From positions 372,001 through 436,000 of the forward strand of contig NZ_KB898873.1 in assembly GCF_000377905.1 (NCBI RefSeq): 64,000 nucleotides of DNA, read 5' to 3'. Below are positions 53,638-58,008 of this stretch, in pieces (the stretch's first letter is position 1; every line of letters starts with the position of its first letter). A program made the position numbers and the translations under genes. Below the pieces are notes generated by a model. The model saw only the letters and a program-made list of their open reading frames with translations, did not search any database and was not told where the DNA came from. The stretch comes from Thioalkalivibrio sp. ALMg11 (GTDB lineage: Bacteria; Pseudomonadota; Gammaproteobacteria; Ectothiorhodospirales; Ectothiorhodospiraceae).

Positions 53638-53654
53638 GACTACGCGGCGGGGCC

Positions 53655-53779
53655 CTGCCCCCGTCATTGCGAGGAGCGCAGCGACGCGGCAATCTCCTTC
53701 CGAAACCACCAAATCCCGGCGCTTCGCCAGCGTCCGGAGGTTGCCACGTCGCCTTCGGCTCCTCGCAATGACAGGGCAG
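53655..53779. repeat. 125-bp palindromic interspersed repeat (cattgcgaggagcg type)
   Basis: Between metA and the MFS gene. Left arm 53655-53686 (ctgccc..gtcattgcgaggagcg) and right arm 53747-53779 are reverse complements with few mismatches, and the symmetry continues inward (cggcaatctcc with ggaggttgccacg), leaving a central loop of about 38 bp. The 'gtcattgcgaggagcg' ends are a common dispersed bacterial repeat type. No ORF. Confidence 0.75.
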
Positions 53780-53807: not shown

Positions 53808-55148
53808 ATGGCCGAGAGTGACCAGGACAAGCTGCCGCGCCCGCTGATCTCCCTGTACGAAACCATTGCCGGGGACGAGGACGCACGCGTCTGCAAGGAC
53901 ATCCCGGAAAACGCCTGCAGCGCCCAGCCGACCAACTTTTTCGTCCATCTGGTCTCCAATACCCTGAGCAAGATCGGCGACGAGCTGGCCTCGGCCCGCC
54001 TGGTCCTCGCCTGGCTATTGGGCGCCCTGGGGGCCCCGGCCGCCTTCGCCGGCTTCCTGGTCCCGATCCGCGAGTCCGGCTCGCTGCTGCCGCAGTTGTT
54101 CGTCGCCGCCGCCATCCGGCGGCGGGCGATCCGCAAGGGCTTCTGGATCCTCGGCAGCCTGCTCTCCGGGCTCGCGGTGGCCGGCATGGCCGTGGTCGCG
54201 CTGACCCTGGAGGGCGTGGCCGCCGGCTGGGCGATCCTCGGGCTGCTGGTCGTCTTTGCCCTTTCCCGCGGGATCAACTCGGTCGCGGCCAAGGACGTGC
54301 TGGGCAAGACCATCGCCAAGCATCGGCGCGGGACGGTGATGGGCTATGCCGCCTCGCTGGCCGGGTTCTTCACCCTGGGGCTGGGCGTCTACCTCAGCCT
54401 CGCGAACCTGGAAGAGGCCGGCATCGGTGTATTCGTGGCCCTGCTGGCCGCCTCGGCCGGCGCCTGGTGGATCGCCGCCGCGACCTTCACCCGGCTGCGC
54501 GAGGATCCGGGTGCCACCGAAGGCGGCGGCAACGCCGTCACCGAGGCCATCAAGTCGATGCGCCTGCTGTGGACCGACCGCGCCTTCGGCCACTTCGTGC
54601 TCACCCGGGCGCTGCTGATGAGCACTGCCCTCGCGCTGCCCTTCTACGTCCTGCTCGCGCAGGACGCCACCGCCGGTGACCTGGGCACCCTGGGCCTGCT
54701 GATCCTCGCCAGCGGCCTGGCCTCGGCCGTCAGTGCGCCGGTCTGGGGCCGGCTATCCGACCGCTCCGCCCGCTGGGTCCTGATCCTCTCCGGGCTTCTA
54801 GCGGCCGGCCTCGGCATTGCCGTCGCCCTGAGCGTCTGGTTTGCACCGGTGGATACGGACCATGCATTGGTGCCCGGGGGCTGGGTCTACGCGACGCTGT
54901 TCTTTCTGCTCGGGGTCAGTCATGCCGGTGTGCGCCTCGGCCGCAAGACGTACCTGGTCGACATGGCAACGCAGGAGACACGCGCCGCGTTCACCGCCGT
55001 CAGCAACACGGTCATCGGTGGCCTGCTACTGATCGGTGGCCTGTTCGGCCTGCTGGCCCAACTGGCCGGCACCGAAGTCGCCATCTTCGTGCTCGCCCTG
55101 ATGAGCCTCGCCGGCGCCTTCAGCGCCTGGCGCATGGGCGAAGCCTGA
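53808..55148 (+). CDS. MFS transporter
   Basis: A 446-residue inner-membrane transporter with about twelve hydrophobic helices from residue 62 to the C-terminus. It has an unusual cytosolic N-terminus of some 60 residues (LPRPLISLYETIAGDEDARVCKDIPENAC), and the inter-helix loop GRLSDRSARW near 310, typical of the major facilitator fold. I recognise no substrate-specific motif; similar proteins are annotated only as MFS. The next gene on this strand is 960 bp away. Confidence 0.85.
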   Translation: MAESDQDKLPRPLISLYETIAGDEDARVCKDIPENACSAQPTNFFVHLVSNTLSKIGDELASARLVLAWLLGALGAPAAFAGFLVPIRESGSLLPQLFVAAAIRRRAIRKGFWILGSLLSGLAVAGMAVVALTLEGVAAGWAILGLLVVFALSRGINSVAAKDVLGKTIAKHRRGTVMGYAASLAGFFTLGLGVYLSLANLEEAGIGVFVALLAASAGAWWIAAATFTRLREDPGATEGGGNAVTEAIKSMRLLWTDRAFGHFVLTRALLMSTALALPFYVLLAQDATAGDLGTLGLLILASGLASAVSAPVWGRLSDRSARWVLILSGLLAAGLGIAVALSVWFAPVDTDHALVPGGWVYATLFFLLGVSHAGVRLGRKTYLVDMATQETRAAFTAVSNTVIGGLLLIGGLFGLLAQLAGTEVAIFVLALMSLAGAFSAWRMGEA

Positions 55149-55198
55149 GGCCCGCCTCTTTCCCGCCGCCTCCCCCGACTGGCCACTGTTCGTCGTCG

Positions 55199-55951
55199 GT
55201 GTTTACGTGTCTTCGTCCGGCCGCCTGCCATGCGCTCTCTCGCGAGCGCACCGCGCCCGTTTTTGATCAAAAACTGACTTCTTTGCTCGTGCAAAGAAGT
55301 ACCCAAGAAACACGCCCGACTGCCGCGACCCCGGCCCGAGGCTTTTCGCGGGCGGCGCTGAACTCGCTACGCTGCGCCTCGCTCAGACATCCAGCGCCTC
55401 GTGCCTATTTAGAATCGTCCCGCGAAAAGCCTCTCCACTCGGCGCGACGACAACGGGGTCAAGATCCAAACAACGGCTATTCCGGCGCTTGTGCTCATGG
55501 ATGAAGGCTGGGTCTTCCGGCATCTCGGGCACGCTCGGCCTTCGGCCATGGCGTGCCGCACCCGCCGAGCGGGCGCCGGGGGACGTAGGATGTGATGAGC
55601 GAAGCGAATCGCATCAGGGTTTCGCACGACGTCGGGAACGGTGCGTTTCGCTGCGCTCAACCGCACCCTACGGGATGCCGTCTGTTTTGACCTTCGCTTC
55701 CCGTATGGAGCCTCTTGCTCCAGGGTCCTCGGGCCGGCCAGTTAACAATAGACACGGGGCGCTGGATGTCTGAGCGTAGCCGCAGGCGTAGCGAGTTCAG
55801 CGCCGCCGGCCCGAGGGCCCTGGAGCAAGGTTCCCGGGCGGAATCCGGGTGCCCTTCTTTGGGTACTTTCTTGGGCAAGCAAGAAAGTGCCTCGGGCGCG
55901 CTGGCGAGTCAGCGCGTGGCAGACGGCGGACCGGAGCCACCGTAAACACCA
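55199..55951. repeat. 753-bp composite element with long folded inverted ends
   Basis: Fills most of the 960-bp gene-free stretch between the MFS and uup genes. Outer ends are perfect for ten bases (ggtgtttacg 55199-55208, cgtaaacacc 55942-55951) and related but imperfect for about 60. Inside each end comes a hairpin with a nine-base-pair stem and six-base loop (55278-55301 and 55866-55889), then accc(a)aagaa, then a larger hairpin: left stem 55339-55353/55420-55434, right stem 55715-55739/55806-55830, each closing a related 66-nt core. No believable ORF; small frames here are shadows of the repeats. Confidence 0.75.
55585..55673. repeat. Internal palindromic repeat (cgtagg...cctacg)
   Basis: Inside the composite element lies a separate palindrome that starts cgtaggatgtgatgagcgaa and ends with accgcaccctacg; its halves (gatgagcgaagcgaatcgcatc; ggtgcgtttcgctgcgctcaaccgcacc) are each a hairpin as well. 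It is of the widespread gtagggtgcgttgagcgcagcg type of dispersed repeat, so the composite is a nest of at least two repeat families. Confidence 0.65.
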
Positions 55952-56109
55952 GATGCCAAACCATGCCCAGCCCTCCCCCGGCATACCCTCAAACGAGGGC
56001 AACCCAAGCGCCGAAAGGCGAGTCTGCAAGGCATCACGGTGCGCGCTACGGCGCGCCAAGGTGATAGGCTTGGCGCCCGCAACAACACTCGCTCGCGACC
56101 GGAATTCGA

Positions 56110-58008
<1,899 letters not shown>

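Follow-up and report, generated by a model that had tools for sequence, protein, structure and literature searches.

MITEs of bacteria, among them NEMIS, RUP, ERIC and Nezha, are non-coding, foldable elements with inverted ends that lie dispersed between genes, and the available text of PMC3733652 gives their usual size as 70–300 bp, with terminal inverted repeats (TIRs) of 15–30 bp. The REPs, BIMEs and REPINs that go with RAYT transposases (GTAG superfamily) are hairpins often found as inverted pairs, a REP being 20–40 bp long with a GTAG foot. GTAG-1 REPs have been named in Thioalkalivibrio sp. K90mix (PMC3733652, available text). Y1 transposases associated with dispersed families of TIRs have also been described (PMC3733652, same portion); the long terminal inverted repeats of these TIRtrons or TIRYT have the word GGGGWSAS in common in the describing paper (PMC3733652; PMC6006769, available text of both). 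Furthermore, the intergenic repeats of Pseudomonas fluorescens (R0, R2, R178, R200 and others) are MITE-like, with inverted repeats and hairpins, and measure 50–352 bp in the table of PMC2718517, as far as its available text goes.

Here we describe an element of Thioalkalivibrio sp. ALMg11 that resembles each of these in part, as found in a 64,000-nt stretch of its genome (the window). In common with MITEs it has no coding capacity, carries terminal inverted repeats (a 62-nt end unit, inverted, at both ends) and is present in several dispersed copies per genome. Unlike MITEs as the available text of PMC3733652 presents them, it mostly measures 530–829 bp between its end words in its own genome, is built of serial hairpins, and showed neither a parent element nor a target duplication. 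Since small size (70–300 bp) and an autonomous parent (own genome, G029, G025 and G001) were both looked for and neither was found, we have not filed it as a MITE. The element is far longer than a REP, with which it shares the loop word TGAGCGNAGCGA, and reading its sequence revealed no GTAG foot at its own core hairpins, whereas a REP pair nested within it has one. It differs from the TIRtrons and TIRYT of the available descriptions in that none of 18 Y1 loci has a Y1 gene between or beside element ends, and judged by size it would differ from the tabulated P. fluorescens repeats. The openly licensed literature searched held no description of the element, only papers on MITEs, on REPs and on unrelated subjects.

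Extent and parts of the window copy

The window copy lies between a gene for an MFS-type transporter (53808–55148) and one that encodes two ABC ATPase domains (56110–58008). Its parts are as follows, in window coordinates.

About 55177–55972, no strand: entire element with its outer stretches of conserved end sequence, from 62-nt end-unit matches at both edges and comparison of edges in the 13 own-genome copies
55177–55230, plus strand: left end unit, of the GGCTGG..GGTTCGTC..GGTGTTTACG.. type, from end-unit matches
55277–55300, plus strand: left small hairpin, 9-bp stem and 6-nt loop, ACTTCTTTG-CTCGTG-CAAAGAAGT, read in the sequence
55338–55433, plus strand: left large hairpin, stem arms 55338–55352 and 55419–55433, 15 bp, 100%
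55353–55397, plus strand: left core hairpin GGCGCTG..CAGCGCC, loop AACTCGC..CTCAGACA (55360–55388), from the sequence and the cross-genus loop word
55434–55713, no strand: element centre, asymmetric, which serves for reading the orientation of copies
About 55585–55671, no strand: nested inverted pair of GTAG-type REPs, missing in some copies (e.g. C5e)
55714–55829, minus strand: right large hairpin, stem arms 55714–55738 and 55805–55829, around the right core hairpin, 25 bp, 96%
55865–55888, minus strand: right small hairpin, 9-bp stem and 6-nt loop, ACTTTCTTG-CTTGCC-CAAGAAAGT, read in the sequence
55917–55972, minus strand: right end unit, inverted, from end-unit matches

An earlier note, made from the letters of the window, had described two arms that mirror each other; in each, a terminal word is followed by a small hairpin with a 9-bp stem, then by ACCC(A)AAGAA and finally by a large hairpin. 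All of these parts were found. The small hairpins do have 9 bp and a 6-nt loop on both sides and differ at two paired positions, and the large stems (left perfect, right at 96%) each enclose 66 nt, as had been stated. The bounds given there, 55199–55951, do fall at inverted ends (GGTGTTTACG begins at 55198 and its inverse stops at 55950); however, on both sides conserved end sequence extends some 20 nt beyond them. The end-unit matches in contig C3 are at 427179–427230 and 427917–427972, with a left edge also at 427177 (window positions are these minus 372000), and at most ends of own-genome copies a word like GGCTGGYCCYGGTTCGTCATCC lies outside GGTGTTTACG. Two other properties hold for the window copy and are not general. 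The equal 66-nt cores are peculiar to it, as the inner core GGCGC..CAGCGCC measures 35–49 nt over 106 arms and the linker beyond is also variable; likewise, the left stem, which here is perfect over 15 bp, has an unpaired position 5 in 18 of 36 left-type arms. The nested REP pair was absent from the first description.

Folded as single-stranded DNA, 55199–55951 gave a z value of −11.2 against dinucleotide shuffles, with none of 20 shuffles its equal. The three open reading frames of the window copy (94–124 aa) matched nothing in Pfam or NCBIfam. Elsewhere in the window, at 53650–53707, there is an intergenic repeat-like word, CGTCATTGCGAGGAGCGCAGCGACG, with GAGCGCAGCGA inside it.

Copies in the genome and the genus

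The own genome (G000; 3.04 Mb in 18 contigs) holds 13 two-ended copies, the window copy included, and one half copy at a contig start, and all 31 matches to the typed 62-nt end-unit consensus in this genome fall at ends of element copies. Matches were found in 17 of 30 genomes of the same genus, strong ones (E below 1e-80) in 14, and in 3 of 28 more distant genomes, weak ones only. Among named genome contigs, 33 of 35 stretches with the end word are titled Thioalkalivibrio; the two extra-genus matches (L106, L119) look like chance and lie inside transporter-like coding sequence. An origin from a plasmid or phage was considered and set aside, one own-genome copy having no match in the plasmid and phage collections searched.

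Shared sites and rearranged interiors

We compared 60 element-bearing loci of other species, which were picked by score or end word and not at random. A flank in common with an own-genome site was present in 37 of the 60, and all 13 own sites were represented; for nine of them, both flanks were found in a single locus of another species. The element sites are old, because for every own site one or both flanks recur at an element-bearing locus in another species, and this sharing argues against recent transposition. At the nine sites the interior of 12 copies lies as it does in the own genome and that of 10 is inverted (22 copies; 11 inverted rows reduce to 10 copies, as two rows are one G021 copy), the species being related and the events not independent. 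A second end unit lies 59–62 nt away at 17 ends, in 15 of the 60 loci.

Lengths also vary at shared sites. At one site the end words are 825 bp apart in G025, 162 bp in G029 and 304 bp in G001, and at the C5e site 67 bp apart in G029 and in G001 and 758 bp in G025, so that short forms of 67–304 bp exist in other species. At the C1a site of G029 there is a 1,994-bp form, in the middle of which an IS110-family transposase gene has been inserted (L148:1079–2071). This form was considered as an autonomous parent and rejected, its gene being the nested IS110 transposase. At the C8 and C2c sites the flanks are swapped in G010 and G021.

The element is present at the window site in G000, G021 and G024, and also in G003 and G022, whose contigs start or stop within it. 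In G010 the form at this site is shortened and has two end units, and in seven more species the neighbours differ and the end word is missing. The earlier note had suggested looking for empty sites in sister strains, and eight species do lack the element here, their MFS and ABC gene matches ending 7–26 nt from each other, but no target duplication could be read at an element-free site elsewhere. One site has the element in G029 and G001 and lacks it in G024 and G010, where the DNA is strongly diverged, and the element-free state of these two could be loss. No target-site duplication was readable in the compared flanks, in which decayed outer units blur the edge and the element-free site is too diverged.

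Other sequences occupy some of these places. In G024 (L181, C12:596700–599700), at the position of the own-genome C1a site, about 2.6 kb of other genes and two attC-like inverted sequences were seen by eye, as if integron cassettes had landed. One own-genome locus (L168, G000:C12:24400–25800) has GTAG-type REPs and no end unit where several other species hold the element. An inverted-repeat element of another kind, whose ends resemble CTAGGGAAACACTGATTCATGTACAC, lies 5′ of the ABC gene in G020, G001, G029, G025 and G004 (L089, L091–L094) and is probably another MITE.

Complementarity of the stems within the genus

If other copies had lacked compensating changes, the earlier note's proposal of structural selection would have failed; such changes are present. 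The comparison took in 36 arms of the left type (A) and 70 of the right type (B), with one more B arm left out. Among the B stems three complementary classes can be told apart, and a few copies are mosaics with arms that fail to match; the mean duplex energy of the B stems is −42.1 kcal/mol within a copy and −38.0 across copies, a difference that none of 5000 permutations reached. For the A stems the values are −28.5 within and −27.8 across copies, and 90 of 5000 permutations were as good; the left large stem is thus weakly kept.

The small hairpins of type B (n = 69) extend their stem by GGTAC/GTACC in 26 cases, GGTCC/GGACC in 13 and GGCAC/GTGCC in 3; another 6 combine two extension haplotypes or are altered on one side, and many others have an inserted module in place of the outer pairs. 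Because the pattern that picked these hairpins requires an inner stem, and because they come from related copies, their counts alone cannot tell selection from shared descent.

A constant loop in variable stems beyond the genus

With the right arm as query, 34 of 369 genomes of the class (29 of 271 genera) gave matches, chiefly in the small-hairpin module, and reading around them revealed a word common to the loops of the large hairpins. This 19-nt loop word, AACTCGCTNCGCTCARACA, is present in 29 of the 369 class genomes, from 24 of the 271 genera, and its reversed pattern in none of the 369. The own genome has no exact match, because the loops of Thioalkalivibrio mostly hold extra inner bases.

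Pairing beside the loop word was tested on 32 occurrences in 30 fetched loci, 31 of them long enough. A perfect closing stem of at least 6 bp was found in 23 of the 31 within the locus and in 103 of 930 cross pairings, leaving 8 cross-genus matches without one. The longest perfect stem averages 8.3 bp within a locus and 3.6 bp across loci, which none of 20000 permutations matched, and the duplex energies are −43.8 and −24.3, respectively. The nine bases 5′ of the loop word have a mean identity of 32% between loci. Stems that are unrelated but complementary, around a constant loop, indicate that the hairpin is conserved as a fold. RNAalifold predicted no pair on a plain MAFFT alignment of the 31 matches, which we put down to stem registers that lie a few bases apart between loci; the structural claim rests on the pairing test, made before that run.

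Among the class-genome matches listed, at least 8 inverted pairs of AACTCGCTNCGCTCARACA occur, 174–262 nt apart, and those examined lie within palindromes that have the Thioalkalivibrio order of parts. Among named records, the entire arrangement is present in a replicon of Variovorax paradoxus, and one of Pasteurella multocida has a variant whose loop differs; for Burkholderia cepacia and Aeromonas caviae the small hairpin alone was recognised. In viral contigs the 19-nt loop word was found in 87 stretches; among the 80 examined (L232–L311) many repeat a few contexts, with closing stems in some (e.g. L236, L287 and L256) and not in others.

The earlier note had attributed changed but self-complementary stems to selection on structure or to copying of one arm from the other. 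The observation behind this proposal extends to the genus and to a sample from 29 genomes of 24 genera; however, the two causes are not separated by it, and the weak left stem, the eight matches lacking a 6-bp stem and the RNAalifold result count on the other side.

Genes and RNA families in the neighbourhood

No transposase gene shares the ends of the element in the own genome or in the end pairs of G029, G025 and G001, where the IS110 gene is the only gene between ends. Y1_Tnp matches were found in 26 of 30 genomes of the genus (25 above the cut-off), including genomes without the element, and the presence of a Y1 transposase does not track it. The 18 Y1 loci examined, two of which cover one gene, contain neither an end unit nor a core word, only REPs. 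In one of the loci inspected (L332, G000:C9:83000–86000), nine GTAG-type REP matches lie around a reading frame of 226 aa whose Y1_Tnp match is weak and under the Pfam cut-off; the locus is likely a REPtron from which the nested REP pair came. Read on the opposite strand, the core loop is TGTYTGAGCGNAGCGAGTT; TGAGCGNAGCGA occurs both in it and in the loops of the nested REP pair (GTAG type), a lead that may point towards Y1 transposases.

Rfam gave nothing at gathering score in the window, the two sub-threshold matches at the right hairpin being to a trypanosome snoRNA (28.9 of 40 bits) and to mir-2366 (26.6 of 68); loci L141, L142, L146 and L147 had no match.

Discussion

We consider it somewhat probable that the element is an old, non-coding, MITE-like composite palindrome which carries a widespread hairpin of conserved loop and variable stem, and which spread as DNA through a trans-acting protein, recombined through its arms and kept its complementarity by recognition of the folded strand. 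The protein, supplied in trans, would recognise the genus-specific inverted ends and, probably, also the folded hairpins with their constant loop. Recombination through the inverted arms would have given rise to the inverted, shortened and interrupted interiors and the swapped flanks. Complementarity would have been kept because the folded strand, as single-stranded DNA or as transcript, was the form recognised, perhaps with the help of template-switch correction inside the palindromes.

Template-switch correction is known for quasi-palindromes, and for the stems it is a serious alternative in its own right. Template switching in replication, or conversion from arm to arm, would perfect imperfect palindromes by copying changes across arms, and complementarity would then persist without selection. 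The element is built of palindromes and the stems of the genus are a few perfectly matched haplotypes, as such copying would produce; however, it leaves unexplained why the 19-nt loop word is constant in 24 genera while the stems are free, as well as the mismatch retained in half of the A stems, and we regard it as unlikely, if well short of negligible, to be the whole account. The near-even orientations at shared sites and the tandemly doubled end units could also suggest an actively inverting element whose own site-specific recombinase works on the end units. Long inverted arms are sufficient for homologous recombination, though, and no recombinase gene was found linked to the end units, which makes such a system very improbable.

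A Y1 (HUH) transposase of the RAYT or TIRYT kind might read the hairpins as single-stranded DNA, as happens with REPs; this would fit the common TGAGCGNAGCGA and the recorded association of Y1 transposases with dispersed TIR families (PMC3733652, available text). The wide occurrence of Y1_Tnp in element-free genomes, the Y1 loci devoid of end units and core words, and the unrecognised GTAG foot at the core hairpin all weigh against this, and we hold it to be improbable. A putative role as RNA, in which a structured transcript or a terminator or attenuator between genes would be kept for its function, appears slightly less probable again. The stable predicted fold, the conserved unpaired loop and the intergenic position of the window copy are consistent with it, but the inverted arms place identical hairpins on either strand and the interiors flip freely, which suits a role as DNA better than one as RNA; moreover, Rfam matches stayed below threshold and strong matches to the element are missing from half of the same-genus genomes.

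The hairpin may define a class of its own. We suggest, as a tentative proposal that we ourselves think doubtful, that it represents an apparently unnamed, widespread class of structured repeats in Gamma- and Betaproteobacteria that would be defined by its fold: a constant 19-nt loop, stacked stems with free letters, and short words on the flanks such as CTGCGNTNCTCG and CTGCGRTGCTCGGC, with two inverted units frequently lying inside one larger palindrome. A conserved protein, or a family of such proteins, would read the folded strand, and the ends would be genus-specific.

That a fold persists rather than a sequence can seldom be demonstrated for the common hairpin repeats between bacterial genes. 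The loop constant in 24 genera offers a possible bait for the protein that reads it, and the stems could be swapped singly. Furthermore, the shared sites, with their inverted, shortened and exchanged interiors, form a natural series on the recombination of long palindromes and the rearrangement of chromosomes.
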